Assembly: GCA_944324135.1 (NCBI GenBank)
Contig: CALUVE010000019.1
Location: 1-39,781 of the forward strand
DNA from: Candidatus Gastranaerophilales bacterium
Lineage (GTDB): Bacteria; Cyanobacteriota; Vampirovibrionia; Gastranaerophilales; Gastranaerophilaceae
Reading direction: 5' to 3'
Length of the DNA: 39,781 bases
A program made the translations under genes and the position numbers. Below the pieces are notes generated by a model. That model saw only the letters and a list, made by a program, of their open reading frames with translations. It was not told the origin of the DNA and ran no database searches. Positions 17,758-37,402 of the stretch are shown here, one piece after another (position 1 is the first letter of the stretch; each line of letters begins with the position of its first letter).

Positions 17758-17787
17758 ACTTTAAGAGTAAACCAATTTTTACGGGAA

Positions 17788-17803
17788 GTAATCAATCTTT
17801 TAA
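17788..17803 (-). promoter_or_regulatory. Shared 16-base upstream element, copy 1
   Basis: On minus TTAAAAGATTGATTAC lies 31 bases before the type B start at 17757. An identical copy is at 19803-19818, 32 bases before the second type B gene. It is either a duplicated promoter part or the duplication edge. Confidence 0.45.
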
Positions 17804-17817
17804 TGTAAAAAACGCAG

Positions 17818-18804: not shown

Positions 18805-19771
18805 TGTGCACCGCCTTTTCAAAATCCTGATATGAACAAATCAAGAATAACTCTAAATAATTATTCTTTTTCTCATCATCAAGTTCGCAATGCCCGCCGC
18901 AATAGAGCATAAATGATTTAAAATATTCTTTAGCCGCATTGAAATATATTTCTTTTACCTCGCCGGAAAGACGATTATAATGGTAAAGAATTAAATCGAC
19001 ATTAAGTCTCAGGATAGTATTTTTATACTTTTCAAAGCGTCCGTGCTTTTGCATAACTTCATCTCCGAGCTTGAGGCTTGTTATGACATCCATAACGCTT
19101 TTGTCTTTTTTCATCATAATAGACCCCTCGCGGGCTGCCCGGTAAAAATAAAGCGGAGTATTTGTAAGAAAAAAGCTTTTGCAGGCACAAAAATATTCAT
19201 ATCCCCACGGCCCATCCTCATATTGTATTCCCTCAACAAATTTGAGATTGTTGTCTTTAATAATTTTAGTTTTGTACAACTTGCTCCAGGCAGTAAGCGG
19301 AATATCAGCGAGAACAGAAGCAGGAAGAGATTTTTCTGTGAGAAGTTTATCTTCAAGTGAATTATCCACAGCGCAAAATGAGAGGTATAACTTGCGGGTA
19401 TTTTGCATAAACACAAAGTTGTTAAACGAAAGAAAATCCGGATTGTGCTCCTTTGCAATATTCAAAACATTTTCAACCAGAAGCGGTGATACATAATCAT
19501 CCGAATCGACAAATAAAATATACTCGCTGTTAACGGCCTCAATTCCTGTATTTCTGGCAGCAGAAAGCCCGCCGTTAGGCCTGTTGATAATCTTTATACG
19601 TTCGTCAAAATCGGCATAGCGTTCCAGAATAAAAGACGATTTGTCGGTAGAACCATCGTTCACACAAATAATCTCAATATCGTGAAAAGTTTGGTTCAAA
19701 ATACTGTCCAGACAAAAGGACATATACTCTTCAACATTATAAACAGGAACAATAATAGAAACTTCTGCCAT
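18797..19771 (-). CDS. GT2 glycosyltransferase, type B paralogue (first of four)
   Basis: 324 residues from the ATG at 19771, chosen because the paralogue also begins MAEVSIIVPVYN; an in-frame TTG at 19810 would lie in the conserved upstream element. IICVNDGSTDKS, GGLSAARNTG and DSDDYVS (DXD) define the GT-A domain. The C-terminal half has TAWSKLYKTKII, YEDGPWGYEY, YFYRAAREGSI and FEKYKNTILRLN as in the gene at 16780-17757. It heads the four-gene run, 60 bases past the rpsP terminator. A surface glycan role is inferred. Confidence 0.9.
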   Translation of the reverse strand: MAEVSIIVPVYNVEEYMSFCLDSILNQTFHDIEIICVNDGSTDKSSFILERYADFDERIKIINRPNGGLSAARNTGIEAVNSEYILFVDSDDYVSPLLVENVLNIAKEHNPDFLSFNNFVFMQNTRKLYLSFCAVDNSLEDKLLTEKSLPASVLADIPLTAWSKLYKTKIIKDNNLKFVEGIQYEDGPWGYEYFCACKSFFLTNTPLYFYRAAREGSIMMKKDKSVMDVITSLKLGDEVMQKHGRFEKYKNTILRLNVDLILYHYNRLSGEVKEIYFNAAKEYFKSFMLYCGGHCELDDEKKNNYLELFLICSYQDFEKAVHNA

Positions 19772-19802
19772 AATTTCAAGGTTACAAGAATTTGCTTTTT
19801 GT

Positions 19803-19818
19803 GTAATCAATCTTTTAA
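19803..19818 (-). promoter_or_regulatory. Shared 16-base upstream element, copy 2
   Basis: Identical to 17788-17803; see that entry. It sits between the rpsP terminator and the first glycosyltransferase gene. Confidence 0.45.
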
Positions 19819-23403: not shown

Positions 23404-24474
23404 ATGTTTAATTATTCTGATTTGTTTGACTTAGGACGCGACTTGTATGCCCTGCCGTCATACAAATCCAGAAGCGGCAAAGCTTTAATCCCTTTGAGAT
23501 ACTTTTTTGAACTTACTTACAGATGTAATCTTCAATGCCCGTACTGCTATGTAGGAAATGAACGCAACAGGGAAGAATTAACAACTGATGAATGGTTCAA
23601 GATTATAGACCAGATACCGTTTTATTCTTTTGTAACATTAGTGGGAGGCGAACCTTTAGTCAGAAAAGACTTTGTTGATATACTGATGAGAACTGCGAAG
23701 AAAACTGCCGGAAAATTAAATGTGGTCTCAAACGGAATTCTTATTAATGATGAAATTATTGATGCGTTTATAAAGAGCAAAATGATGCTGTTATCAGTCT
23801 CGCTTGACGGTTACGGCAAAAATCACGATATAAACAGGGCAAAAGACGGGATCTGGGATAAAATAATGAATAATTTTGAAAAAATGAACTCCCGCCATAA
23901 ACGTCCTATGGTCGATATAAAAACCATCGTTCTGGAAAATAATCTTGACGATTTAGTCAAATTATATAAGATGTGCGATGAGATGAAATTTAATTTTCTC
24001 TCAATTTCATTTCTCCGGAACAACAACCTTAAACAAAATTCTGTCTTATTTGACAGCTTTGTACCGGAATTCAATGCATCATATCCGATAAAAAAATATT
24101 TTGATATGGAACATTTTAAAGAAGTCTACAGGGAACTTCAATCGCTCAAAAAACATTCGAAAGTCGAATTAAGATTTTCGCCGAAATTTGAATACAACTC
24201 AGACCCTCTTAAAAAAATTGAAGAATTTTTTAACACACCTGCGGACAAACCTGTACAGGAAATATATTACCCGTGCAAATATCCGTTTTCCAATATGATG
24301 ATAAATCCGTCAGGAGATGTTTACCCGTGCCTTTCACAAAAAATAGGCAACGTAAAAGATATGCCGTTAAAAGAGGTATTTAACCTGCCTCATTACAGAT
24401 GTTTCCGCAAAAACCTGCAGGTTGCAAAAGTATTCGGCGCATGTCAGATGTGCTGTGAACTTAAAGTAAGATAG
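23404..24474 (+). CDS. Radical SAM protein with SPASM-like C-terminus
   Basis: 356 residues. The radical SAM cluster is Cys41, Cys45, Cys48 in ELTYRCNLQCPYCYVGN; the following LVGGEP corresponds to the GGE SAM-binding motif. The C-terminal SPASM-like region has YYPCKYPF, INPSGDVYPCL, and FGACQMCCELK, enough cysteines for auxiliary clusters. Such enzymes modify peptides or proteins (PqqE, AnSME, RiPP maturases). No precursor peptide gene is visible between it and its neighbours. AAAGGAG precedes the ATG. It probably shares a transcript with the ZIP gene. The substrate cannot be stated. Confidence 0.9.
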   Translation: MFNYSDLFDLGRDLYALPSYKSRSGKALIPLRYFFELTYRCNLQCPYCYVGNERNREELTTDEWFKIIDQIPFYSFVTLVGGEPLVRKDFVDILMRTAKKTAGKLNVVSNGILINDEIIDAFIKSKMMLLSVSLDGYGKNHDINRAKDGIWDKIMNNFEKMNSRHKRPMVDIKTIVLENNLDDLVKLYKMCDEMKFNFLSISFLRNNNLKQNSVLFDSFVPEFNASYPIKKYFDMEHFKEVYRELQSLKKHSKVELRFSPKFEYNSDPLKKIEEFFNTPADKPVQEIYYPCKYPFSNMMINPSGDVYPCLSQKIGNVKDMPLKEVFNLPHYRCFRKNLQVAKVFGACQMCCELKVR

Positions 24475-24523
24475 TTTAAAAATAACTTATTTACATGCTG
24501 CGGGGAATTTCTACGATTTTTGT

Positions 24524-24560
24524 ACGTAAAATTACGTACGTAAAATAACGTAGATATAAA
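24524..24560 (+). promoter_or_regulatory. Tandem operator and promoter at the phage-block start
   Basis: Two abutting 14-base units, ACGTAAAATTACGT (24524-24537) and ACGTAAAATAACGT (24538-24551). A promoter TTACGT (24532-24537), 17-base spacer, TATAAA (24555-24560) is embedded in them, so a bound regulator would occlude RNA polymerase. Confidence 0.6.
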
Positions 24561-24600
24561 TACGGACTTTTATTTTTTTGAAAAAAGTTTATACTTAAAA

Positions 24601-24707
24601 ATGTAGACGATTAAGGCTCAAGCCCGCAGGAAAGAAAAACCTGCCATAGTTGACGGCAAAGCTGTTTATCGGCAGAACAGAGATGTTTTGTGTTCAGAAG
24701 GGAGAAT
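24601..24707 (+). promoter_or_regulatory. Structured 5' leader of the control gene
   Basis: Three local stems are visible: GCAGG/CCTGC (around 24626-24645), an outer CTGCC/GGCAG pairing, and GAACA/TGTTC just upstream of the start. The core GACGGCAAAGCTG recalls, but does not match, known riboswitch motifs. Could be a regulatory leader. Confidence 0.35.
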
Positions 24708-25091
24708 ATGGGATATATACATTGCTGCGGAGGGCTGCGTAAGTGCAGAACTTTTAGCCTCACTCCGCGCGAAAATTACGTATTATCAGAACTGGATTAT
24801 CTAAAATCCTGTCCTGTATGCGGACATACTGTTGTTCAACTCACCAGAGTCAATACGGAGGACAACATTTCCGTTATAAGAAAAGTAAATAAGAAAGCTA
24901 TAGACTTTTTTAAAAAATTAAAAAGTGAAATTTTATACGAAATAAAACCACAAAAAGAAACAATCCCTAAAGGGAGTTTCTATCTTAATTACAATGAATA
25001 CGGCGTGAGAAAGAGGTGTTATTCAAATCTCAGCGCCTTAAAAATAGGGTTGACTGAAAATAAATTTTTAAATATCGCTAAAACTCTTTAA
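24708..25091 (+). CDS. Small Cys-rich (zinc-finger-like) protein
   Basis: 127 residues from ATG 24708, preceded by GGGAG at short spacing; an in-frame GTG at 24690 was rejected. Cysteines at 6, 7, 13, 35 and 38 (SCPVCG) could form a zinc finger in the first 40 residues, recalling Com-like phage translational regulators but with poor similarity. The rest is basic and helical (KVNKKAIDFFKKLKSE) with a C-terminal basic YGVRKRCYSN. It is followed by a terminator and preceded by an operator and structured leader, so it is an early control gene of the block, by inference. Confidence 0.65.
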   Translation: MGYIHCCGGLRKCRTFSLTPRENYVLSELDYLKSCPVCGHTVVQLTRVNTEDNISVIRKVNKKAIDFFKKLKSEILYEIKPQKETIPKGSFYLNYNEYGVRKRCYSNLSALKIGLTENKFLNIAKTL

Positions 25092-25118
25092 AATCCTTTA
25101 ATTATCTTACCCGAAACA

Positions 25119-25144
25119 CAGGGAAGCATTAAGCTTCCCTTTTA
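25119..25144 (+). terminator. Terminator after the control gene
   Basis: A perfect 7-bp stem GGGAAGC (25121-25127) with GCTTCCC (25133-25139), loop ATTAA, then TTTTT. Confidence 0.85.
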
Positions 25145-25177
25145 CTTTAAAAATTGGAAATATTATTAACAAAAAAA

Positions 25178-25195
25178 ATTAGCACTTAGGCTAAT
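25178..25195 (+). promoter_or_regulatory. Palindrome upstream of LuxR-type gene
   Basis: ATTAGC-acttag-GCTAAT (25178-25195) is a perfect 6-bp inverted repeat, directly followed by TATAAA (25195-25200). It may be the operator of the downstream HTH gene. No good -35 box is seen. Confidence 0.4.
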
Positions 25196-25240
25196 ATAAA
25201 AACAATATAAAAAGCTCAAAATCCAAATAAAGGAATTAAG

Positions 25241-25447
25241 ATGAAACTATCACAGAAAGAGACGGAAATTATAACTTTGGTTGCGAGGGGTTTTGAAGAC
25301 AAAGAAATCGGCACAAAGCTTAAAATTTCAGGGCGGACAGTACAGACTCATCTTACACGAATTATGCTGAAGTTGAATGCCAGAAACAGAACCGCTGCAG
25401 CCATCAGCTACATTAAGCACAATCCGGAATATCTAAAACAACTTTAA
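25241..25447 (+). CDS. Stand-alone LuxR/GerE-type HTH regulator
   Basis: 68 residues that are only a LuxR-family DNA-binding domain: LSQKETEIITLVARGFEDKE (helices 1-2), IGTKLKISGRTVQTHLTRIM (helix-turn-helix with the recognition helix), and LKLNARNRTAAAISYI (dimer helix). Signature residues K/E, ARG, EIG and VQTH are present. Family members are normally fused to a receiver or sensor domain; GerE is the stand-alone exception. AAAGGAA lies before the ATG. The gene is 19 bases from the amidase gene and is probably the transcriptional switch for the downstream cassette. Confidence 0.88.
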   Translation: MKLSQKETEIITLVARGFEDKEIGTKLKISGRTVQTHLTRIMLKLNARNRTAAAISYIKHNPEYLKQL

Positions 25448-25465
25448 ATCAGGAGAGAATAAACA

Positions 25466-25966
25466 ATGAAAAGAATCATACTGCACTGGACTGCGGGCAG
25501 CTATACACCCAATGCCCATGATTTAGAATGCTATCATTATTTAATAGATTCGACGGGCAGCATACATAACGGTAAATTCAAGCCGGAGGACAATCTTGTG
25601 TGCAAAAAAGGAGGCTACGCCGCGCATACCGGAGGGGGGAATACAGGTTCAATAGGGGTAAGTTTTTGCGCTATGTATGGCTATAAAAACAAAAACAACG
25701 CCGGCAAATATCCTATTACCCCGAAACAATTTGAAGCTGGGATGAAATTATGCGCAGAACTCGCCTTGAAATACAATCTGGAGATTACCCCACAAACTGT
25801 TATGACGCATTATGAATTCGGAGAGAAAAACCCCAACACAACAAGCGCCGGCAAAATAGACATAACATATATCCCGCCGTATCCGTGGGTTGACAAAAAT
25901 GATGCCGGCAGCTTTATCCGCTCGAAAATCAAATGGTACAAAAATCAAATACAGGAGAAAAAATAA
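25466..25966 (+). CDS. N-acetylmuramoyl-L-alanine amidase (endolysin-like)
   Basis: 166 residues, a single amidase_2/PGRP-type domain. It cleaves the amide bond between N-acetylmuramic acid and L-alanine of peptidoglycan. The likely zinc ligands are His7 (IILHWTAG), His115 (VMTHYEF) and Asp132 (GKIDITY). YHYLIDSTGSIHNG and NTGSIGVSF match family strands. No signal peptide, so release would need a holin or a virion position. Placement just before the tail nozzle gene suggests a lytic enzyme or tail-associated enzyme. Its stop overlaps the next start by one base (TAATG). Confidence 0.9.
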   Translation: MKRIILHWTAGSYTPNAHDLECYHYLIDSTGSIHNGKFKPEDNLVCKKGGYAAHTGGGNTGSIGVSFCAMYGYKNKNNAGKYPITPKQFEAGMKLCAELALKYNLEITPQTVMTHYEFGEKNPNTTSAGKIDITYIPPYPWVDKNDAGSFIRSKIKWYKNQIQEKK

Positions 25967-27480
25967 TGGAAGTTGCATACTACAATCTATCCGGCGGGAT
26001 AAATCAATCTCTGACAAAAACAGAATTAGGGCTGGATACAAAAAAAATTTACTGGAGTGATGCGGAAAATGTTGAAATTTTACAGAACCGCGGAATTTGC
26101 AAGCAAAACGGAAACATCTGTTTTTTAGAACTTCCTGCAGCAGAAAGCGTCACAGGGATGCATGAGATAGATGCTGATAATGAAAAATTTCTTTTTATCA
26201 CAACATACTCAGGCAAAATATACGTTTATAAAAACAACGGGAATACTCCTACTCTTCTATCAAAAACTCTGAGCGGCAAAACTCCGGTTTTCACCAATTT
26301 TCTTGACGGAGTATTAATTTCTTCGGAAGCTGACTGCCCGTTTTATGTAAAAAATAACCTCTCAATAGTTGAAACAAATGCAAAGGATATAAATAAATCC
26401 ACGCTAACTTCAACAATTACCACTGTTTACAAAGGTCGAATATGGATTGCAAAAGATTCGGTAATTTATTATTCTGCACTCGGTTCATACACTGATTTTA
26501 CAACTGAAAATGACGCCGGCTACATTAGAGATTTTCATACCGACACAGCAGATATTATTGCACTAAAGCCGTATAAAGATTACCTTGCAATTTACAAAAA
26601 AAATAAAGTCTACCTCCTGACCGGCACAAGCCCTGATGATTTTGCAATAACACCGTTTGCAGAAAAAGGAGCACTCTCTTCCGGCTCTATAGTGAATGTT
26701 GAGAACAAACAGTATTTCTTAAGCAACGGAATCTTTGCGCTGGAACAGGTAGGAGAACTTAATCAAATCCAGCTCGGGTCAGAAATTTCACTGAAAATCA
26801 AACCTGAATTTTCAAAATTTGACAAAGCAAGACTAAATGAAACTCTGGCACTCCATTACGAAAACAGAAGCCAGATATGGTTTTTCTTCCCATACTATGA
26901 CTCCACATATTTTCAGACAATATGGATAAACGATTATGTGAACAAATGCTGGTACAAAAGAGTCCTGCCGCAAAATATAACAACCGCAGCAATTTATGAT
27001 GGCTATGTAATAACAGCGGATAATGAGGGAAAAATCTACAGGGAGGATTACGGAACATCTTTCAACGGAGAGCCTGTAAAATTTATGTGGAAGTCTCCTT
27101 TTCTTGCAATATCTTCAGCACACCACAGAAAAACCATTGATGAATTCTACTTTCTGCTGGATGAAGCCTATGACAACAACTTTGATTTTTCCGTATACAA
27201 AGATTACGACAGCGAATATTCTGATGATTTGGAAAAAATATATTCCATCCATTTTGACCACCTAATATGGAGCAACGGCACGGAAACACAACATTACAAA
27301 GACTATTGGCCTGAAGATGATGAAACCGGTCCGGTTTGGGCTATCGGAAGAAACACTCTTGAAAAAGCTGAAATATCAGAAGCTAACTATTCAATTCAGC
27401 TATGCGTAACAGGAACAACCGCCAAACAAGCCTGCGGAATTATAGGTTTGCAATTCAGGGAAATTTATAACGACGACTGA
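25966..27480 (+). CDS. Podovirus-like tail nozzle/hub protein
   Basis: 504 residues from the ATG at 25966 (AGGAG 10 bases upstream; a longer in-frame start at 25933 was rejected). Many repeating strands of the form KIYVYKNN, RIWIAKDSVIYYSAL and YLAIYKKNKVYLLTG suggest a beta-propeller, as in the gp10-like/gp12-like nozzle proteins of short-tailed phages. YYSALGSYTDFTTENDAGYI is a phrase typical of these. It would cap the portal and adaptor and close the DNA channel. Assignment rests on fold-like pattern and neighbours rather than a clear motif. Confidence 0.6.
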   Translation: MEVAYYNLSGGINQSLTKTELGLDTKKIYWSDAENVEILQNRGICKQNGNICFLELPAAESVTGMHEIDADNEKFLFITTYSGKIYVYKNNGNTPTLLSKTLSGKTPVFTNFLDGVLISSEADCPFYVKNNLSIVETNAKDINKSTLTSTITTVYKGRIWIAKDSVIYYSALGSYTDFTTENDAGYIRDFHTDTADIIALKPYKDYLAIYKKNKVYLLTGTSPDDFAITPFAEKGALSSGSIVNVENKQYFLSNGIFALEQVGELNQIQLGSEISLKIKPEFSKFDKARLNETLALHYENRSQIWFFFPYYDSTYFQTIWINDYVNKCWYKRVLPQNITTAAIYDGYVITADNEGKIYREDYGTSFNGEPVKFMWKSPFLAISSAHHRKTIDEFYFLLDEAYDNNFDFSVYKDYDSEYSDDLEKIYSIHFDHLIWSNGTETQHYKDYWPEDDETGPVWAIGRNTLEKAEISEANYSIQLCVTGTTAKQACGIIGLQFREIYNDD

Positions 27481-27545
27481 TTTATAAACACTACTCATCA
27501 AAAAATATAAGTACAACAGAGAAAAAAAAAGAAAGGAAAAACTAA

Positions 27546-28466
27546 ATGTCAAACAAATACGCCGCATTTATTCCGGAAATCTGGAGCCAAAAGTTAAACA
27601 CTATGCTTGAAAAAGATTGCGTAATGCTTCAGTGTGTAAACAGAAATTACGAAGGAGACATCAAAAATCAGGGTGACAAAGTTAAAATCATCACTCCTGC
27701 AAAAGTAAATGTTTCCACCTTGAGCGATGCTGCATTGACCTACAACGAACTTGAACCGACATCAATGGAACTTGTCATTGACCAGAAAAAATTCTTCGCA
27801 TTCAAAATCAATGATGTCGCAGCGGTACAGGCAAACACAGATATTATGGAAGCACATCTTGCCAATGCTAAAAAAGCAATTGAAGAAGTTCAGGATTCAT
27901 ATCTGCTCGGGCAGCACGCCTACGTAGACTCTTCAAATATTATAGGAAGCGACGACTCTCCGATAACATTGAACAAAACAACTATCTACGAACAATTTGT
28001 AAAACTTGCACTTGCCCTGAAGAATTCAGATGCTGTCACAGGCTCAAAACGTCCATGGGTTGTGATTAACCCTACAATTGAATCTTACCTTCTCCAGAGC
28101 ACTGAATTTATCGGTGCGCACAATGTTGCAGACGAAACTTTGAGAGAAGGCGCTATAGGCAGAATTGCCGGAATGGACGTACTTGTCAGCACAAACCTGA
28201 CAGAAGTTGACGGTCTGTATTATGTTCTTGCAGGGACAAACGAAGCAATCACATTTGCTTCCCAGCTTGCGAAAGTAGAAAGTCTGAGAGACAAAGACAG
28301 CTTCTCAGACCTTATCAGAGGCTTGTATTTGTACGGGGCAAAAACAGTTCAGCCAAAAGCGCTTGCCAAAATGGTTGTGTCAGCACCGGACGCATCAGTA
28401 TCTGGTTCAGAAGCTGATTCAGACTCTGATACTGACACAGATACAGACACTGATAACGATGTATAA
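27546..28466 (+). CDS. Major capsid protein (HK97-like)
   Basis: 306 residues. The N-terminal half (MSNKYAAFIPEIWSQKLNTM; KNQGDKVKIITPAKVNVS) and the central PWVVINPTIESYL and GRIAGMDVLVSTN phrases are typical of coat proteins of the P22/HK97 group. The terminal tail SGSEADSDSDTDTDTDTDN is a low-complexity acidic repeat encoded by repeated GAYACW hexamers (28408-28463). GGAAA lies upstream of the ATG. A hairpin terminator at 28496-28530 follows, which would uncouple its expression from the downstream genes. No protease or HK97 delta domain is visible. Confidence 0.82.
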   Translation: MSNKYAAFIPEIWSQKLNTMLEKDCVMLQCVNRNYEGDIKNQGDKVKIITPAKVNVSTLSDAALTYNELEPTSMELVIDQKKFFAFKINDVAAVQANTDIMEAHLANAKKAIEEVQDSYLLGQHAYVDSSNIIGSDDSPITLNKTTIYEQFVKLALALKNSDAVTGSKRPWVVINPTIESYLLQSTEFIGAHNVADETLREGAIGRIAGMDVLVSTNLTEVDGLYYVLAGTNEAITFASQLAKVESLRDKDSFSDLIRGLYLYGAKTVQPKALAKMVVSAPDASVSGSEADSDSDTDTDTDTDNDV

Positions 28467-28495
28467 GAGTTCAGGTTAACTTCCTTACCCCGAGA

Positions 28496-28530
28496 AGCAC
28501 CCGCAGATTTCCTTATATCTGCGGATGCTT
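28496..28530 (+). terminator. Terminator after capsid gene
   Basis: Stem AGCACCCGCAGAT (28496-28508) with ATCTGCGGATGCT (one mismatch; 28517-28529). A weak T tract (TTTATAAG) follows. Confidence 0.65.
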
Positions 28531-28551
28531 TATAAGAAAGAAAGGATAAAA

Positions 28552-28824
28552 ATGTTTGAAAAATTTAAAGAAACGGTGAAAGAATTGGCACACACAGCAG
28601 TTCTAAAAGCAGAAGATGCTCTCGGAAGCAAAACCGGTCAGATGAAAAAAGAAATGGCTCTGAATTATATAATCAAAAATCTTCCGCTGCCATCATTTCT
28701 GAAACCGCTCATCGTAAAACTTATATCCGGCTTTATAGATGACGCTATAGAATTTGCCGTGGATTACATGAAAAAGCACAATTGTGAAGAACCGCAATCA
28801 GGAGAAAAAAATGATGAACTATAA
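28552..28824 (+). CDS. Small helical phage protein
   Basis: 90 residues from the ATG at 28552 (GAAAGGA 8 bases upstream); an in-frame TTG at 28525 lies in the terminator hairpin and was rejected. Amphipathic helices; a moderately hydrophobic stretch (LPLPSFLKPLIVKLISGFID) could touch or span a membrane, so a holin-like role is possible but not supported by a charged tail pattern. The C-terminus is acidic. Overlaps the next gene by 14 bases. Family not recognised. Confidence 0.65.
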   Translation: MFEKFKETVKELAHTAVLKAEDALGSKTGQMKKEMALNYIIKNLPLPSFLKPLIVKLISGFIDDAIEFAVDYMKKHNCEEPQSGEKNDEL

Positions 28825-29413
28825 TGAACGACAACAAATTTCATCACCTGCCGAAAATCAAAACCCCGTTTTGGAACAGGAGATTAATGCATACTTAAAA
28901 CAAAAATTAGGGAATCAGAATTTCACAGGGACACAGCAGGAAATGTTGAAGAAGATGTTACTAAATAACGAACAAGGGAGTTCTTTGTTGAAAGATTATC
29001 TAAATAGTGTGTGTGATGCAATTATCAAAAATAATGCAAAAACTTCAACAGCCGCCAATGATAACCTGAAAAAATTCTTTGATATGGATGGTAGAAATGA
29101 AGTAATGAATTATCTCAAAAATTCCAACATGGATTTTGATAATGATGAAATACAAAAAATATCAACAATTGTAGAAAAAATAGAAAACTCTGCAATAGAT
29201 AGATATTTAAAACAAAAAGCACGCGAAAAAACAATGCTGGAAGAAAATGAATATGCAAAACAAAAGCTAAAATCCAATGCGCAAAATTCAGGATACAATT
29301 CTTCCGGCAGCAAAATATTTACCCGCGAGCAAATCGGCAAGATGAGTAGTGCGGAATTTGCAAAAAATGAAAAATTAATTATGGAGCAACTGCGCCAGGG
29401 ATTAATACAATAA
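28811..29413 (+). CDS. Coiled-coil, Gln/Asn-rich phage protein (scaffold-like?)
   Basis: 200 residues from ATG 28811, preceded by AGGAG. Strongly helical, rich in Q, N, K and E: DYLNSVCDAIIKNNAKTS, NSAIDRYLKQKAREKTML, and a C-terminal basic/hydrophobic helix. Scaffolding proteins of P22-type phages are helical and charged and usually lie before the capsid gene; here it follows it. It could also be an internal head protein. Overlaps the 90-residue gene by 14 bases and ends before a terminator. Confidence 0.6.
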   Translation: MMNYNERQQISSPAENQNPVLEQEINAYLKQKLGNQNFTGTQQEMLKKMLLNNEQGSSLLKDYLNSVCDAIIKNNAKTSTAANDNLKKFFDMDGRNEVMNYLKNSNMDFDNDEIQKISTIVEKIENSAIDRYLKQKAREKTMLEENEYAKQKLKSNAQNSGYNSSGSKIFTREQIGKMSSAEFAKNEKLIMEQLRQGLIQ

Positions 29414-29428
29414 CAAATTCCAAAAATC

Positions 29429-29463
29429 GACGGGGTTAACATTAACAACCCCGCCGGTTTTTA
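29429..29463 (+). terminator. Terminator before the adaptor gene
   Basis: A 7-bp stem CGGGGTT (29431-29437) with AACCCCG (29447-29453), loop AACATTAAC, followed by CCGGTTTTTAT. Confidence 0.75.
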
Positions 29464-29478
29464 TAAAAGGAGAACACG

Positions 29479-30117
29479 ATGAATTATTTTGAAATAATGA
29501 ACAAATGTCTGGTAGAACTGGGCTATAAACAGGTCAACGTTTTTGCAGAATTGACAAAAAACGACCACCTGAAACTTAAAAACATAATTAATATTATAAA
29601 TAATACAATATGCAGATATGACAACTGGTATTTTTTAATGAGGAAAAAACAGCTGGAGCTTGAATCAGGCAACACCGAAATTCCGAATACAATAGACGGC
29701 AGAATTATAAAAGTCATGATTGATAATCAGGAATATGATTACCTGATAAATTACGAAGATTTTATAGGCCGTACAATTCCGGAAAAATGTTTCACCGTCT
29801 GCGGGGACAAACTTATTTTTCCTGAGTTCAAAAATGAAAAAACTATCAGCATAACTTATTACACCAAAAACACTGCAATATCAGCAGACGGGACAGAAAA
29901 AAGCATGCTTGAAGCCGAAACTGATACTTCTCTGATACCCATGCCGTTTGTAGAACCGCTCCTTGTCTATGGAAGCTGTATGAGACTCAAAGCTAATCCG
30001 CAGCATGTCAAATTCAGCTACTGGTACGGCATGTACAAAGAAGCACTTTCTGATATGAGAGCACAAATTTCAATATCGGCAAAAGAGATGCCTCTAATCA
30101 AAATGCACAGGAAATAA
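29479..30117 (+). CDS. Head-tail adaptor, podovirus gp4-like
   Basis: 212 residues. WYFLMRKKQLELESGNTEIP, DYLINYEDFIGRT, CGDKLIFPEF and ITYYTKNT are typical of adaptor proteins that bind below the portal in P22/T7-like virions. Helical N-terminal and C-terminal parts flank a small beta domain. AAAGGAG precedes the ATG. The next gene begins 163 bases downstream after a spacer that may hold a promoter. Its presence, with a nozzle-like protein and no tape measure, implies a short-tailed particle. Confidence 0.72.
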   Translation: MNYFEIMNKCLVELGYKQVNVFAELTKNDHLKLKNIINIINNTICRYDNWYFLMRKKQLELESGNTEIPNTIDGRIIKVMIDNQEYDYLINYEDFIGRTIPEKCFTVCGDKLIFPEFKNEKTISITYYTKNTAISADGTEKSMLEAETDTSLIPMPFVEPLLVYGSCMRLKANPQHVKFSYWYGMYKEALSDMRAQISISAKEMPLIKMHRK

Positions 30118-30279
30118 CACAGACGCTAAACAACCGTGTATCTGGCAAATTTGGGCAAAAAAAACAGGAAGTTTTCATTCCCCCCTGTTAAGATTTACAC
30201 TAGCCGAAATATAAATAGCATGTTTATTATACCTTTTTTTTTGAAAAAACGCAAATTTTGATAAGAAATGTAAAAAATA

Positions 30280-30723
30280 ATGTCACAAAAAATGAAACAA
30301 TTAACACAACAACAAAAAACGTTTGTATCAGAATACATAAAAACACTGGACGGAGAAGATGCAGCTAAAAAAGCCGGCTACAAATCGAAAGACTTCAAAG
30401 AAACTGCAAACAAACTGCTTGCTGAAAATCACATCGTAAAAGAAATTAAAAATCAGATAAACAACCAGATATACTCACTGCGTGTGCAAAAGGGATATGT
30501 AATACAGAAACTTTTACAGATAGCTGAATTTTCGCTTGAGGAAGAAGAAATCACGGACAAAGACGGGAATTATACAGGCAAAAAGAAACTCCGGGATACA
30601 GGAGGCGGCTTAAGAGCACTGGAGAGCCTGTGCAAATATCTCGGAATAAATTCGCCAGAAAATGACGAATACAAACCGGCTAAAATTATTACGATATCTA
30701 ATCTGGACGATGAAAAAATTTAG
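30280..30723 (+). CDS. Terminase small subunit
   Basis: 147 residues. The N-terminal DNA-binding domain is of the terminase_2 type: LTQQQKTFVSEYIKT, DGEDAAKKAGYK, NKLLAENHIVKEIKNQI. It recognises the packaging site and stimulates the large subunit. There is no convincing Shine-Dalgarno sequence before the ATG. The C-terminal acidic part (EEEEITDKDGNY) and LRALESLCKYLGI also fit. The large subunit lies 3.4 kb further on, after the portal, a wider separation than usual. Confidence 0.85.
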   Translation: MSQKMKQLTQQQKTFVSEYIKTLDGEDAAKKAGYKSKDFKETANKLLAENHIVKEIKNQINNQIYSLRVQKGYVIQKLLQIAEFSLEEEEITDKDGNYTGKKKLRDTGGGLRALESLCKYLGINSPENDEYKPAKIITISNLDDEKI

Positions 30724-30744
30724 CAGGAAGAAAGGATTAAAAAA

Positions 30745-31104
30745 ATGAAAAACAACAAAGATTTAGAAGAAGTTTTGATAAATAAAAAAAGCATGGATGA
30801 ACTGATAAAAATGAAAATAGAGAAAGAATTCCAAACAGAAATATCAGCCTCCAGACATAAAAAAACAAAAAAAATTATAACAGACATCAAACAAGTTCCC
30901 AAGGACAAACTTTTCAGTAAACAAGCAGTATTCAAAATTTACAACAGACAAACAGGAACAGAATCCACAATAAACGGCATTCAGGCAGAGGGCATGCTTG
31001 GTTTACAAAACTCCGAGAGAACAAAACTTTTGAATGGAGAAATAACCTCCTTTGCAACAGATGATACTTATATTAAATTTGAAAAAATATGTTTAATTTC
31101 TTAA
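30745..31104 (+). CDS. Hypothetical basic protein
   Basis: 119 residues, highly basic in the first 50 (IKMKIEKEF; SRHKKTKKIITDIK), then a strand-rich section (AVFKIYNRQTGTESTINGIQ). No family recognised. It begins 21 bases after the small terminase stop with AGGAAG upstream, and its end overlaps the acetyltransferase start by 16 bases. It could be a DNA- or capsid-associated accessory protein, but only its location suggests so. Confidence 0.6.
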   Translation: MKNNKDLEEVLINKKSMDELIKMKIEKEFQTEISASRHKKTKKIITDIKQVPKDKLFSKQAVFKIYNRQTGTESTINGIQAEGMLGLQNSERTKLLNGEITSFATDDTYIKFEKICLIS

Positions 31105-31637
31105 CTCTTAATCTTAAACTACAAGACCAAAACACTGCTAACACCAATTTACTTCTTGGCATGCATTTACCCCGCCTTTTCTTTCTTTATAAAAAATACG
31201 AAAAATTACTGCACGATGACTATACACCGCCTGTAAATTTCAAAAAGTTTCTTGATTTTGTTCTTGGGAACAATTTTTTCTGGCTGATAACAGAATCCGA
31301 AACGAACAAATTCGCAGGATTTGTATATCTTGATAATATCACCGGTGACGGTAAACGCTTTCACAGCGCAGAAATCACCACATGCTTTGAGCGGAATTTT
31401 TGGGGAGAAAAGACCAGACTGTGTGCAATGGAATTTTTTGAATATGTTTTTGAAAAATTCGGATTCTACAAAATAAAAGCAGAAATATACCCGCAAAATT
31501 TCAGAGTAAAGACTTTACTGAAAAAATGCGGCTTTATAAAAGAATGCACCCTCAAAAATGAAACTCTGCGAGAGGGGAAACTACAAGATTTAGAAATATA
31601 CGCACTAATAAACAAAAAGAAATGTGAGGAACAATGA
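31089..31637 (+). CDS. GNAT-family acetyltransferase
   Basis: 182 residues. A RimJ/RimL-like layout: a beta strand ending in KFAGFVYLDNI, a CoA-binding region before RNFWGEKTRLCAMEFFEYVF (loop less typical than R/Q-x-x-G-x-G/A), KFGFYKIKAEIYPQNFRVK, and KKCGFIKECTLK toward the end, which match motif B of the fold. It would transfer acetyl from acetyl-CoA to an amine; the substrate is unknown. The next gene overlaps by ATGA. A GNAT between small terminase and portal is unusual for a packaging operon. Confidence 0.75.
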   Translation: MFNFLTLNLKLQDQNTANTNLLLGMHLPRLFFLYKKYEKLLHDDYTPPVNFKKFLDFVLGNNFFWLITESETNKFAGFVYLDNITGDGKRFHSAEITTCFERNFWGEKTRLCAMEFFEYVFEKFGFYKIKAEIYPQNFRVKTLLKKCGFIKECTLKNETLREGKLQDLEIYALINKKKCEEQ

Positions 31638-33298
31638 AAATAGAAACAGAAGATTTAACGGTACAAATTGACGAAACCGAAGAAAAATTTTTATCAAATA
31701 TGATAATAAAAAAATACGACACGCTGGAAAACGAAAGATTATCCCAAATAAGTGATATCAAACTTGTCCGCAATTCTATTTATAATCAAACTATACCAAA
31801 AATAAACGCCTGGGAGAGCAAAATTGAATTGCCTGACATCTATGAACTTGCGCAGACACTCAAATCGCATCTGGCACAGAATCTTTATTCACATCCTGAC
31901 GCAATGTTTGACGTCGCAGGGACTTCACCGGAGACACAGGAATATGCCAATAAACAAAAAGCAATGCTTGTGAATACTTTTGAACAAATGAAATTTGAAG
32001 ATGAGATAGAAAAAATAATAGACAGTGTAGTCGAAACAGGAGAATGCACACTATTTGTCGGCTGGGAAAGCAGAATTAAACAAATACGCAGACAGCTTAC
32101 CCCTGATGAACAGAGCGTAAATCCTGAGGGCAAAAATTTTGTTGTGGAAGAAAAACTCATCTATGACAACGCAAGAATAAAACACATAAAAGCAGAAGAC
32201 TTTGTATTTGAAAAATGCTCAAATCCCGACTGGGACAACTGCGCAAAGATATACAGAACTTATTCTTCATTAGAAGAAATTCTTGGCGACAGTTCAAACA
32301 ACCTGCTGAATGAAGAAAAACTGGAAGCACTGAAAGGAGTGATGGCAAAGAACAAAAAAGAATCCACAAAAGCAGTAGAAGAGAACAAACTGGAGATATT
32401 AGAATACTGGGGAGACATAGAACTCTCGGACGGCAGAATTTTAAAGAATAAACTTGCAGTACTTGCAGGCAGACAGGAACTAATAAGATTTGAATCAAAT
32501 CCATTTGTAATAAACCCGTTTGTCCACGCTAACATAATAGAAAACCCGACAACCGGACGTGGGATATCGCCGCTTAGAGTGGCACTTATTTTGAACAATC
32601 TTGCATCAACTATTTTAAACAAACAAATAGACGCTCTTGCATTAATGATGAACCCACCATACCTTGCGCCCAAAGGATGTTTCCGCGGCGAACAGGACGT
32701 CAGCCCAGGGAAAATTATAGAATATGATGCTGCTTTAATGCCGACACAGCCGATTCCTCTTAGTTTTGACAAAGCTATGCAGGGCTGGGATTTTCTGAAC
32801 TATTTTAAAGCAACAATTGAAAGCGCCACAGGTATTTTCAAAAATATGGCAGGCAATATACAGACACAGGAAAGAACTGCCACGGAACTGAACTACTCTG
32901 CTAACGGACAGGAAGCCCGTCTTAACCTTTTGATTGAATCCATCAACCGCAAAATACTGATTCCGACAATAGAAAAAACAGCAGAAATCATCTCAAACTT
33001 CAAACTCGGCCCGGAAACAATCACATTGAACAACCACGGCAAAACTGAATTTATAGATATTGACGACAACATCAGAAATGCAAACTACATTTACCGTTAC
33101 GGAGACAGAAAAGCGCATTTTGAAAGAAAATCAAAGTTGAAAGAGCTGTTTGAGATAGTAAGCTCATTTGCTCAGGTAGACACCGTAGCCAGACAAATAG
33201 ACTGGATAGAATGTTTCAAATTTGCACTTGAACAATACGGCATTGAAAATTCAAGTAATTTTCTTCTGGAAAATCCGTCAGGTAATACAAATGCTTGA
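31634..33298 (+). CDS. Portal (head-tail connector) protein
   Basis: 554 residues. INAWESKIELPDIYELAQTL, CTLFVGWE, FVFEKCSNPDWDNC, NPTTGRGISPLRVALILNN and GIFKNMAGNIQTQERTATEL are typical of podovirus portals; MMNPPYLAP and the C-terminal helical region fit the family's barrel/wing arrangement. It forms the 12-subunit ring through which DNA enters. Starts by overlapping the acetyltransferase stop (ATGA). A disordered membrane-anchored protein follows after 37 bases. Confidence 0.85.
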   Translation: MKIETEDLTVQIDETEEKFLSNMIIKKYDTLENERLSQISDIKLVRNSIYNQTIPKINAWESKIELPDIYELAQTLKSHLAQNLYSHPDAMFDVAGTSPETQEYANKQKAMLVNTFEQMKFEDEIEKIIDSVVETGECTLFVGWESRIKQIRRQLTPDEQSVNPEGKNFVVEEKLIYDNARIKHIKAEDFVFEKCSNPDWDNCAKIYRTYSSLEEILGDSSNNLLNEEKLEALKGVMAKNKKESTKAVEENKLEILEYWGDIELSDGRILKNKLAVLAGRQELIRFESNPFVINPFVHANIIENPTTGRGISPLRVALILNNLASTILNKQIDALALMMNPPYLAPKGCFRGEQDVSPGKIIEYDAALMPTQPIPLSFDKAMQGWDFLNYFKATIESATGIFKNMAGNIQTQERTATELNYSANGQEARLNLLIESINRKILIPTIEKTAEIISNFKLGPETITLNNHGKTEFIDIDDNIRNANYIYRYGDRKAHFERKSKLKELFEIVSSFAQVDTVARQIDWIECFKFALEQYGIENSSNFLLENPSGNTNA

Positions 33299-33335
33299 TG
33301 CAAAAGAGAAAAGAACCATGCTACTATAAACAGAT

Positions 33336-33851
33336 ATGAGATGGCAGAGCAAAATACTATTCTTAATGCTGTTTTTCCCGATGATACTGGTAGGGATATT
33401 ATTTTCTTTTCTCAGCATGAATGAACTTGCAGAGAACGAAAAAGCCAAAAGGCAATCCGTTCAGGAGCAGATAGAAGAGGAGGAGGAACTAAATGACCCG
33501 ACACTATGGCCGGAAGAGAGAAAACGGCTGAAAGAAAAGCGGCGGTTAGAGAGGGAAGCAGCACAGCAAAGAGCACAAGAACAGCAAACTTTTTCGGAAG
33601 CTGAATCTGTCGAACAGGAAGAATACAACAATGATACCGGCAATGAATACAGCGGACAGGAAAATGTCTACGATGAAACAGAAACACGCCGGTCAAACAA
33701 TCAAAACGCCTACAACGAATATAACCAACAGGAAAATCCTGATAGTTATGAATCAGAACAAGAATCTCACCAGCCGCAACAGGAGTATGCTTCCCAGGTC
33801 AGATACCCCGAACAAACACTGGAAGAAATTCCGATAGAAGAGTTTCAATAG
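33336..33851 (+). CDS. Membrane-anchored acidic Q/E/N-rich protein
   Basis: 171 residues. One N-terminal transmembrane helix (ILFLMLFFPMILVGILFSFL, residues 7-26), then a charged coiled-coil-like segment (EEEEELNDPTLWPEERKRLK), and a long disordered tail rich in Q, E, N, Y and S. No Shine-Dalgarno sequence; TATAAA ends 5 bases before the ATG. An inner-spanin-like lysis protein would have a similar anchor plus coiled coil but not this tail. Function not assigned. Confidence 0.65.
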   Translation: MRWQSKILFLMLFFPMILVGILFSFLSMNELAENEKAKRQSVQEQIEEEEELNDPTLWPEERKRLKEKRRLEREAAQQRAQEQQTFSEAESVEQEEYNNDTGNEYSGQENVYDETETRRSNNQNAYNEYNQQENPDSYESEQESHQPQQEYASQVRYPEQTLEEIPIEEFQ

Positions 33852-33877
33852 AGGATATACTGTTTGGAAAGAATATC

Positions 33878-33956
33878 AGATTCTTCGCTTCCCTCAGAAT
33901 GACAGAAAACATGATGGTCATTCTGAACCCGATAGCAATTCAGGGGTGAAGAATCT
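33878..33956. repeat. Inverted repeat, host-type intergenic repeat inside phage block
   Basis: Outer arms AGATTCTTC (33878-33886) and GAAGAATCT (33948-33956); inner arms CAGAATGAC (33895-33903) and GTCATTCTG (33917-33925). Its right half, 33917-33961, repeats 504-548. It fills part of the 220-base gap before the large terminase gene. Confidence 0.6.
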
Positions 33957-34073
33957 TTTTTCCAATAATTAACGTTTTTATCGTCCTATCCGTATAAACG
34001 TCATTACGACTCCACTTTGACATTCTTCCATCAGCTCCGCGGGGGATAACTGTAGTCTACACTTGAAAAATAT

Positions 34074-35378
34074 ATGATAGATAAAAAAATGGAATATAAA
34101 CTTTTAAAAGCACAACGAGAATTTTTGGAAATTCCGCACAATTATACGTTGGATGTTGCGGTATATCAAGGCGGTTATGGCTCAGGTAAAACCTTTGCCG
34201 GTTCGCTTTTAGGGATACTGTTATGTATGAAATTTCCCGGGATACGAGGGCTTGTCGGGGCACAAACCTATACTCTGGTAAGAGATACAACCTTGCAGAC
34301 ATACCTTGAACATCTTGATAATATGAATTTTCAGGAGGGAGTGGATTATGAGTGGTCGTCAACACTACAAAAACTTGTGTTTAGAAACACCTCAGAAATC
34401 CTTTTCCGGCATTTCGACGAACCAAACAAGCTGAAATCATTAAATTTAGGATTTGTAGAGATAGAAGAGATGTCAGATATACCCTATGAGACATTTAAGA
34501 TGCTCCTTGGCAGAATGCGCCAGCAGCCTAAAAAAGAGTGGAAGAATTTCACCTACAGGATATTCGGGCATACAAACCCGGAACCGCAAAAAGGCTGGAT
34601 ATACAAAACTTTTATGCAGAATCCTGCCCCGAACTACAGACTGATAACGGCACCTACAACACAAAATATTTATCTGCCGGAGGGCTTCTGCGAGGAACTG
34701 AAAAAAATCTATGATGAACAGTACTACAAGATATTTGTGCTGGCACAAAACGGAGAATATAATACCGGACTTGTAATCAAAGATTTTACGGAAGAAAACA
34801 TAAAAGAGATAAATTACCAGAATGACTGTGACTTACACATCAGCTGTGATTTCAACGTAGATCCGATGTGCTGGGTACTGGCGCACAAAACAGAGGAAAA
34901 AGTATTTTACTTTGACGAAATAGTGCTGGAGAACACAACGACCGCCAAAGCCTGCGAAGAGTTCTGCCGCAGGTATCCGAACCACAAAGGAGCAATTATC
35001 GTAAACGGGGATGCCTCCGGGGATAATCGCAGCTGTACAAGCGAATATACAAATTATGTAATTATTAAAAAAAAACTTTTACAATACGGTTATGATGCCG
35101 ATATAAAAATAAAGGCCTTTAACCCGCCGATAAAAAACCGCATCGCGGCTTTCAACTCCAAAATACGCAACGCTAACGGGGAAGTTTGTCTTTATGTGGA
35201 CAGAAAATGCGAAAAACTACTCTATAATATATATAACTTAAAATACAAAGAGGGAACTTCGCGCATAGATATTCCTGCCTACACCCAGATTAAACAGAAC
35301 AAAGAGCTTAAATTTCTATCCCATCCGATAGATGCCGCCTCATATCTGGTTGACTTTTACTGGCCGATAACTCTTTAA
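34074..35378 (+). CDS. Terminase large subunit
   Basis: 434 residues. The N-terminal ATPase has Walker A GGYGSGKT (33-40), a Walker B-like FVEIEEMSD, and a motif III-like FGHTNPEP. The C-terminal RNase H-like nuclease includes ISCDFNVDPM, VNGDASGDNRS and SHPIDAASY, giving the three acidic metal ligands. PBSX/terminase_6 type. It drives DNA packaging into the portal. The start has no clear ribosome site; the ATG at 34089 is an alternative. It lies far downstream of the small subunit. Confidence 0.9.
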   Translation: MIDKKMEYKLLKAQREFLEIPHNYTLDVAVYQGGYGSGKTFAGSLLGILLCMKFPGIRGLVGAQTYTLVRDTTLQTYLEHLDNMNFQEGVDYEWSSTLQKLVFRNTSEILFRHFDEPNKLKSLNLGFVEIEEMSDIPYETFKMLLGRMRQQPKKEWKNFTYRIFGHTNPEPQKGWIYKTFMQNPAPNYRLITAPTTQNIYLPEGFCEELKKIYDEQYYKIFVLAQNGEYNTGLVIKDFTEENIKEINYQNDCDLHISCDFNVDPMCWVLAHKTEEKVFYFDEIVLENTTTAKACEEFCRRYPNHKGAIIVNGDASGDNRSCTSEYTNYVIIKKKLLQYGYDADIKIKAFNPPIKNRIAAFNSKIRNANGEVCLYVDRKCEKLLYNIYNLKYKEGTSRIDIPAYTQIKQNKELKFLSHPIDAASYLVDFYWPITL

Positions 35379-35397
35379 ACACTAATGGAGACAAGTA

Positions 35398-35640
35398 ATG
35401 GAAAATATACTGATGCACTATTCTCCAATCCTGATTGCAATTATGATATTTCTGATTCAACAGCGGATTGTTGTGACTCCGGAACAGTTGGAGAAAAAAC
35501 ACAGAGAAATAATTGAAGATGTCGAAGAAAAATTTGTTACAATCCATAGTTTTCAGGATTTGAAAGAACAATTTTCCGAAATGAAAGATAAAATAGACAA
35601 AATTTATGACTGCGTTATGACAAATAATATAATAAATTAA
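35398..35640 (+). CDS. Small membrane/coiled-coil protein after terminase
   Basis: 80 residues. An N-terminal helix (YSPILIAIMIFLIQQRI) spans the membrane; the remainder (TPEQLEKKHREIIEDVEEKF) is a charged coiled coil. Small proteins of this form often follow large terminase genes in phage genomes and have no assigned role; holin-like or lysis accessory functions are guesses. AAUGGAGA lies before the ATG. It is the last gene that I assign to the block. Confidence 0.6.
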   Translation: MENILMHYSPILIAIMIFLIQQRIVVTPEQLEKKHREIIEDVEEKFVTIHSFQDLKEQFSEMKDKIDKIYDCVMTNNIIN

Positions 35641-35758: not shown

Positions 35759-37402
35759 ATGGGACTGGCAGCATCACAAGCGAGATTTCTAGCAATCACA
35801 GCGCGTAAAACCGACTGTGAATTAAAGTCTACCCAACTGGCGCAGGATAAACTTTCTGTAACCAATGAGTTGACCGAAGCTACTGAACAATATCAGAGCT
35901 CCTTGAATGCTACAAAATTAATCTGGGATACAGACGGTTCAGGTTTGAATATGTATGAAGTTTCATACGATTTGTTGATGACTCCGTCTGCACTCAATAT
36001 GTACGACCCGTATCTGGTAACAGACCCTTCAGGCAGAATTGCTCTGGACGCAAGACTTGCTGCAGCGGCAAGGAATGCAAAGATAGACCCTAAAGGCGGT
36101 ACTACTGCATCTGAAGCTGGCAGAGAAGATTTTATAAATGCATTAGTTACAGCCGGTGCAATTACTGGCTCAACCGGTGCAACCATATTAGAGAATGCAT
36201 ATTCAGAATCTGCAGGTGTCGGCGGAATCCCGCTTGACAAAACTGCAGCTTATGCTGTTTCTAACGAAACTCTTGCTAATTATTTAAGTGATGAGGCATA
36301 CAAATTAGATATTAAAGATGTTTTAGGCAAATTTGGCGAAACTGAATTTGCAACAGGCAAAAAAGGCGGCGTAAATATTGCTATAAACGGTAATGCAATG
36401 TCCAGTGTAGATTCAATGAAAGAATTAACCCTCGGCGATTTGTTACAAAACGAATATACTTTCCTTGCATCAGGCGGGGATAACCAAGGGGTTGCTCCTG
36501 GCAGTCAGAATTGCAAAGAGTTCATGAACGCTGTATTCGGATGCGAAAGCAGCGAAGATATTCTGGATTTAAGTCTTAACACCAATTCAATCTTTGGTAG
36601 AATAGCTACTATGTTAACAAACCTCTTAGGGATTGACGATGCAAGCTTAAAAGCTTTAGATTTTGCATATAACAAAATAATGCAAAGCTACACAAATCAT
36701 AACAATGTTATTAATGCCGGCAAACCGGGTTCAACTACTTCGGCATATAATGACGCAAATGCAAAAGCGAATGAATATAACGCTGTTGTATACACATCAG
36801 ATGAAGACTTGAATAAAAAAGAGAATGCTTACAACGCTGTTAACTTGACAAACCTTGTAAATTCATTCTTAACTTACTATGCACAGCAATTATCAAGCAG
36901 TGATTACTTAGTAAGCAGAATTGATGAAAGAAGTTATTACGTAACAGACGATGTTAACTATATGTACACATTGAGAAACGAAGAAGCTGTTACAGAAAAA
37001 GACTTATTAATCACTGACTTCTACAACTCATTATACAACAACATCTGTGCAAGCGGCTGGACAGGAGCATACGCAGATTATTTAGGCGATGAGGACTACT
37101 TCCAAAACGCACTGAAAAACGGTCAATTATTCGTATCAGTACTGGCAACAGACGGCTATTATTATCAGGAAGTTTACAACGATAACGGATATATGGTAGA
37201 AGTTACTGATGATGATGCTATTGCACAGGCTGAGCTTGAATTTGAAATAATCAAGAGCAAGCTCAATGCTAAAGAAGAAAAACTTGATATTGAGATGAAA
37301 AATGTTGATATGGAAATTTCTTCACTCACTACAGAATACGACACGGTTAAAAACCTTATCTCCAAAAATATCGAAAAAGTATTCACAATGTTCCAATCAT
37401 AG
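35759..37402 (+). CDS. Secreted-type protein with flagellin-like coiled-coil ends
   Basis: 547 residues. The N-terminus MGLAASQARFLAITARKTDC and the following helical LAQDKLSVTNELTEATEQYQ, plus a C-terminal helix (EFEIIKSKLNAKEEKLDIEM to EKVFTMFQS) flank a large variable middle rich in N, S, T, Y and G. This is the layout of flagellin/FlgL-like export substrates, with no Sec signal. I associate the N-terminal pattern with proteins common in Melainabacteria, but cannot verify that. The ribosome site is weak (AAGG, 14 bases upstream). A terminator follows at 37441-37472. It is not obviously phage-related and may be an independent locus. Confidence 0.75.
   Translation: MGLAASQARFLAITARKTDCELKSTQLAQDKLSVTNELTEATEQYQSSLNATKLIWDTDGSGLNMYEVSYDLLMTPSALNMYDPYLVTDPSGRIALDARLAAAARNAKIDPKGGTTASEAGREDFINALVTAGAITGSTGATILENAYSESAGVGGIPLDKTAAYAVSNETLANYLSDEAYKLDIKDVLGKFGETEFATGKKGGVNIAINGNAMSSVDSMKELTLGDLLQNEYTFLASGGDNQGVAPGSQNCKEFMNAVFGCESSEDILDLSLNTNSIFGRIATMLTNLLGIDDASLKALDFAYNKIMQSYTNHNNVINAGKPGSTTSAYNDANAKANEYNAVVYTSDEDLNKKENAYNAVNLTNLVNSFLTYYAQQLSSSDYLVSRIDERSYYVTDDVNYMYTLRNEEAVTEKDLLITDFYNSLYNNICASGWTGAYADYLGDEDYFQNALKNGQLFVSVLATDGYYYQEVYNDNGYMVEVTDDDAIAQAELEFEIIKSKLNAKEEKLDIEMKNVDMEISSLTTEYDTVKNLISKNIEKVFTMFQS

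Follow-up and report, generated by a model that had tools for sequence, protein, structure and literature searches.

The window analysed in this study is a complete contig (C19, 39,781 bases) from a 1.82-Mb genome, assembled in 47 contigs, of Candidatus Gastranaerophilales. The Gastranaerophilales are a non-photosynthetic order of gut bacteria in the cyanobacterial phylum, and the relatives used for comparison are likewise gut members of this phylum. Between 24.5 and 35.6 kb the window contains an approximately 11-kb phage-derived cassette of 15 intact frames which, together with the regulatory features in front of them, all lie on the forward strand. The cassette is bordered upstream by a radical SAM gene ending at 24474 and downstream by dn547, a gene of a host family, starting at 35759.

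The first gene, g1 (24708-25091), is conserved in this position, carries the ribosome-binding site GAAGGGAG before its ATG and encodes a 127-aa protein with zinc-ribbon-like cysteine pairs. It is followed by a stand-alone LuxR-type regulator of 68 aa with a GerE helix-turn-helix (HTH) domain (25241-25447; Pfam GerE, 5e-17) and by an endolysin-like N-acetylmuramoyl-L-alanine amidase (25466-25966; Amidase_2, 3e-14; phrog_5867, 1e-34). The next frame (25933-27480) codes for the tail nozzle protein (phrog_3287, 2e-20). Relatives of the nozzle in the PDB were not found by sequence and came by fold only: the best structural matches of its AlphaFold model (pLDDT 79) were entries for phage tails and nozzles, among them P22 gp10, Sf6, T7 gp12 and SU10. 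The major capsid protein (27546-28466; phrog_267, 4e-52) precedes a holin-like protein (28525-28824), matched by Phage_holin_6_1 below the cut-off (3e-4) and by phrog_6918 (1e-6). The conserved helical protein g209 (28784-29413), with an all-alpha model and a conserved C-terminal FTREQIGKMS..IMEQLRKGLI domain, is a possible scaffold, the scaffold matches in the fold search being weak. Then come the head-tail adaptor (29479-30117; SU10_adaptor, 3.5e-5; phrog_6013, 2e-9), the terminase small subunit TerS (30280-30723; Pfam Terminase_2, 4e-15), g119 (30745-31104, 119 aa, syntenic in relatives), a GNAT acetyltransferase (31089-31637; Acetyltransf_3, 2e-8) and the portal protein (31634-33298; SU10_portal, 1e-15; PDB 9k09 portal, 5e-14). 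The genus-specific g171 (33336-33851), with homologues only in three genomes (G001-G003), is the sole cassette gene that appears weakly constrained. Between it and the terminase large subunit TerL (34074-35378; Terminase_3, 1e-20) lies a dispersed repeat of host type (33860-34060) with 47 matches in its own genome. The last frame, g80 (35398-35640), encodes a small conserved protein of 80 aa which is linked to TerL and also occurs in related phages. Four frames, g209, g119, g171 and g80, encode small proteins without assigned function.

Family searches against Pfam and PHROGs recognised no integrase and no gene of replication or lysogeny in the cassette, the flanking frames of the contig showed none either, and the search for att-like direct repeats flanking the cassette was negative. 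These are the genes (integrase/excision, replication, lysogeny) by which a temperate prophage is defined. The integrase, att sites and mobility between strains that mark a phage satellite of the phage-inducible chromosomal island (PICI) or capsid-forming PICI (cf-PICI) kind were likewise not found. An earlier sequence-only reading of this stretch had named TerS, TerL, portal, capsid, adaptor and amidase, all of which proved to be intact and, by their Pfam and PHROGs matches, present; its nozzle was borne out by the AlphaFold model and its stand-alone LuxR-type switch by the GerE match. It had also noticed the missing integration, replication and lysogeny genes, the chromosomal surroundings (here the radical SAM and dn547 genes) and the host-type repeat, and in these points our results agree with it. 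Its inventory was incomplete, since the holin-like gene (at 28525), the GNAT gene (at 31089), the 119-aa, 209-aa and 80-aa genes and also the promoter and leader RNA at 24523-24673 had been overlooked.

TerL was detected in 52 of the 116 relatives searched, in most of them as a single copy. The type A gene order, g1-luxR-amidase-nozzle-capsid-holin-g209-adaptor-terS-g119-GNAT-portal-terL-g80, recurs, apart from a few gene losses, in about 30 genomes of 17 genera, in a single copy per genome, and many genera share the site FliI-ZIP-rSAM-[cassette]-dn547, in which rSAM is the radical SAM gene. Type B cassettes (L097-L110, L289, L290) have the same core genes in another order and belong to a different subclade; they also begin with a LuxR-type gene, and their host flanks vary between genomes. 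A linkage of type B to flagellar export genes, seen in L105, was rejected, as the other type B loci do not have it. Type C is a third arrangement, found in one genus; in one of its loci (L286, G048:C4) several tandem g209-like genes lie upstream of the capsid gene. In the genus g18 (genomes G020 and G055, loci L276 and L278) the nozzle, holin, GNAT and g80 genes are cleanly gone from an otherwise intact cassette, and the nozzle was not found elsewhere in these genomes. Despite these losses, the capsid, portal and terminase of g18 are still under purifying selection.

In order to follow the inheritance of the cassette, a host tree was built from rpoB/rpoC of 71 genomes. All type A carriers fall within a single clade with a support of 0.999, in which the cassette is present in 29 of the 40 tips. 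Its presence on this tree requires 5 parsimony changes, compared with a mean of 22.6 and a minimum of 16 after shuffling. Of the 20 splits in the concatenated cassette tree of 23 genomes, 13 also occur in the host tree (0.4 on average at random), and the cassette and host distances are correlated with a Mantel r of 0.82, a value that none of 2000 permutations reached. TerL, portal, capsid and amidase are full-length in all 25 type A loci compared, the nozzle in 23, being absent in the other two. The dN/dS values between congeners (NG86) were 0.02-0.03 for TerL, 0.02-0.08 for the portal, 0.02-0.13 for the capsid and 0.05-0.15 for the nozzle, rough ratios since dS is near saturation; those of the host neighbours rSAM and ZIP (0.02-0.08) are close to the values of the cassette core genes. 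Neutral decay of the core genes is thereby excluded, and the cassette is very probably a domesticated phage element inherited vertically with the host. The three comparisons proposed by the sequence-only reading each point to domestication: the carriers belong to one host clade and the two trees agree, 17 genera keep the gene order, frequently at a shared site, and TerL, portal and capsid have low dN/dS values. The att sites and the linked integrase that were to speak against it did not appear in the contig.

In several genera the radical SAM/SPASM gene (23404-24474) is the immediate upstream neighbour of the cassette, a position that it keeps even where the cassette occupies another site (G018, G053, G033, G064). 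The downstream neighbour dn547 (35759-37402) was considered as a cassette gene and rejected, because it is a member of a large host family, for which this genome gives about 16 matches. Proteins of this family are conserved at the C-terminus and, with MGLAASQARFLAITARK, at the N-terminus, and 52 of 66 type A loci have a family gene downstream of TerL at a distance of at most 2.5 kb. Farther upstream, four tandem family-2-type glycosyltransferase-like genes occupy 15747-19810.

The nearest relatives among real phages have TerL proteins 54-57% identical to that of the cassette; the viral contigs of L145 and L146, 46-48 kb in length, encode an integrase, a DnaB-type helicase and RusA. The best isolate phages reach 29-32% identity. 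In the TerL tree the type A clade comprises 85 distinct sequences with no full-length phage within. The viral contigs with TerL identity above 74% are at most 18.5 kb long and, if long enough to judge, contain the cassette, often with its host neighbours as well. Three IMG/VR contigs listed as viral (L111, L114 and L119) carry the cassette plus the neighbouring host-family gene and look like pieces of chromosome. The chromosomal type D loci intermingle with viral contigs in the TerL tree, and by this placement they are probably ordinary prophages.

Upstream of g1, 19 genomes have in common tandem dyads, a GGACTTTTA element, a TATACT -10 box and a leader. In the window the tandem dyad operator is palindromic, of the TACGTA type, and occupies 24523-24552, while the promoter, with the GGACTTTTA element, the TATACT -10 and a poor -35, extends from 24564 to 24595. 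The recognition helix of the LuxR-type protein co-varies with the operator class without exception at the 35 loci where both are readable: the RTVQ helix is paired with ACGTA operators (10 loci), the YxTVR helix with CATG operators (24 loci) and the divergent helix of G020 with a TGTACA operator, the helix class having changed about four times along the cassette tree. Since helix and operator change together, the LuxR-type protein is likely the regulator that binds the cassette operators. The poor -35 box suggests that it would act as an activator rather than as a repressor.

The expected transcript, with a predicted start near 24602, begins with a structured leader RNA (24606-24673) of three helices, P1, P2 and P3, and an optional extra hairpin. 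In an alignment of 40 leader sequences RNAalifold predicted 13 pairs, of which 11 show compensatory changes; the 11 core pairs are formed in 99.8% of 440 alignment cells, against 27-58% in slid controls, and the covariation score was reached by none of 500 shuffles. The leader had no Rfam match above the gathering score (best E-value 1.7). It is not a coding sequence, as its spacer lengths differ by 2, 3 and 5 nucleotides. The covariance model detected it in 23 of the 116 genomes, each of which has it at the start of the cassette, and no leader was found in the type B, C and D loci. It is absent mainly where g1 is absent, so the g1 protein and the RNA may act together. Both g18 genomes possess a second leader copy with the same operator and promoter (L357 14765-16861; L358 10670-13385), placed before an operon beside recA which encodes secreted TonB-like proteins and a GHSEGG hydrolase-like protein. 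Weaker matches to the leader were seen near a PAPS-reductase-like gene in G053 (L359 1283-1338) and upstream of an XRE-type regulator gene in G030 (L360 5542-5629).

Taken as a whole, the cassette probably works as a gene transfer agent (GTA) of short-tailed type and independent origin; as packaging of host DNA and its transfer are what we infer, it is called GTA-like rather than a GTA. According to this proposal, the head, packaging and lysis module of a short-tailed phage would have been captured in the ancestor of a large Gastranaerophilales subclade, would then have lost all mobility and replication genes and been passed down with the chromosome. The LuxR-type protein would switch the operon on by binding the dyads that precede the main promoter, with the structured 5' leader RNA as a putative second layer of control. 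The products would assemble into a capsid with portal, adaptor and nozzle, which TerS and TerL would load with chromosomal DNA. The main argument for a GTA lies here: since the cassette is unable to excise or replicate, the packaged DNA should be chromosomal. Holin and amidase would free the particles, and these would bring DNA to related cells. ComEC, a possible uptake route which could assist the last step, was found in each of the 22 genomes tested, whether or not they carry the cassette. In favour of the proposal there is also FpGTA of Faecalibacterium, a podovirus-like GTA operon of 10.5 kb for which particles have been demonstrated (PMC12946183).

Several observations weigh against the GTA-like proposal. 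TerS retains its N-terminal Terminase_2 region, therefore packaging may be site-specific, and no gene for a receptor-binding protein was found. The loss of nozzle, holin, GNAT and g80 in g18 means that DNA injection may not be the task in every lineage. Within the carrier clade the cassette is absent from G004/G043, G006, G028 and one seven-genome subclade. At the empty site of G004 the ZIP gene abuts a SpmA-like gene, and rSAM and dn547 are gone too; this site was rejected as a pre-insertion state, because the gap removes both genes and G004/G043 are nested among carriers, a position that makes loss more parsimonious than insertion. Supported conflicts between the cassette and host trees remain, e.g. 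in the positions of G012/G049 and G058, which may come from occasional transfer or from tree error. Finally, the particle and the DNA inside it are predicted from the genes of the cassette.

The loss in g18 is also an argument for a domesticated particle with some other job, such as phage interference, kin-directed lysis or the disposal or storage of DNA, since packaging genes were kept there although nozzle, holin, GNAT and g80 were not. Vertical inheritance and purifying selection fit such a particle equally well, and the second operon of g18 shares the promoter and leader RNA of the cassette. However, the full packaging machinery of TerS, TerL and portal is kept with the lowest dN/dS, the nozzle is retained in most genera, and ten scanned non-structural or small cassette proteins gave no match to defence families apart from the shared HTH; we consider this explanation unlikely. 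A satellite moving with the help of a phage would account for the compact set of capsid and packaging genes, and related phages are present in the same hosts. Such a helper-dependent element, resembling a cf-PICI, is nevertheless very improbable for a single-copy cassette that has no integrase, att repeat or replication gene and is distributed along host clades; the empty site of G004 is also without the neighbouring host genes.

That the cassette is a decaying, functionless prophage remnant could be argued from the lack of early genes and of some expected virion genes (tail fibre, typical scaffold). Since 25 genomes with near-saturated dS have its core frames intact and at full length, and the regulatory RNA and the operators are conserved with compensatory change, we give this view hardly any credence, and the sequence-only reading had already thought simple decay less likely. 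Its third option, an intact but unusual small-genome phage, here taken as a temperate phage spreading between cells, would suit the phage derivation of the cassette and its lack in some genera. It is disfavoured to the point of being scarcely tenable: replication and integration genes are missing, the cassette TerL clade holds no full-length free phage, isolate phages are at best about 29-32% identical, and the related free phages, of 40-47 kb, encode integrase and DnaB as well as RusA.

If the GTA-like proposal is true, an independent GTA origin spans 17 genera of animal-gut Gastranaerophilales, whereas GTAs are known from few lineages. Its compact regulatory circuit of operator, LuxR-type protein and leader RNA is directly testable, and the natural nozzle-less variant bears on the purpose of such particles. 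The cassette also indicates that some public viral contigs are pieces of host chromosome. A bolder version can be offered only tentatively, and we regard it as rather doubtful: that the cyanobacterial phylum has here its first GTA lineage, derived by an independent domestication of a short-tailed phage that preceded the split of the 17 host genera, and that a new sensory leader RNA and a dedicated LuxR-type activator together decide on lysis and DNA spread, the activator co-evolving with its operators and controlling a second operon in one genus. A literature search, of incomplete coverage, found nothing relevant on GTAs in Gastranaerophilales or Melainabacteria.

Among the known systems, the cf-PICI satellites have a compact capsid and packaging set like that of the cassette; unlike it, they carry integrase and replication genes and move. 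The temperate phages of Gastranaerophilales (L145, L146 and type D) have TerL, amidase and g80 homologues in common with the cassette, but are 40-47 kb in size and encode integrase, DnaB, RusA and fibre-like genes. The short-tailed phages of the SU10, P22 and T7 type share the families or folds of portal, adaptor and nozzle; they are full phages, in contrast to the cassette, which is without replication, integration, fibre and ejection proteins.

GTAs have been defined by six features: proteins derived from caudoviricetes, encapsidation of mostly random host DNA, a fully endogenized genome, particles that cannot hold the whole GTA genome, co-diversification with the host and delivery of DNA to other cells (PMC9662315). 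Three of these were found for the cassette, namely the phage-derived proteins (by Pfam, PHROGs and fold matches), the endogenization (a single copy with host genes on both sides and no integrase or att site) and the vertical inheritance with co-diversification. Like the cassette, BaGTA (Bartogtaviriformidae) and the RcGTA-like type I GTAs are endogenous, caudoviricete-derived head and packaging clusters which co-diversify with their hosts (PMC9662315). The cassette, read from its genes, differs from them in having its own LuxR-type protein and leader RNA and in being an SU10/P22-like short-tail module; because its phage ancestry appears separate by family matches, it would stand outside any recognised GTA family. 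By analogy, the closest working counterpart appears to be FpGTA, a podovirus-like operon of about 10.5 kb whose particles of about 40 nm contain about 8.5 kb of DNA (PMC12946183). It belongs to a Firmicutes host, its TerS has no obvious DNA-binding domain, whereas that of the cassette retains the Terminase_2 region, and its holin, endolysin, fibre and receptor-binding protein are encoded in a second locus (PMC12946183), whereas the cassette keeps holin and amidase in the main one. By description, FpGTA resembles the cassette in its TerS, TerL, portal, capsid and podovirus-like proteins, in the absence of mobility genes and in its presence in all genomes of a gut genus (PMC12946183).

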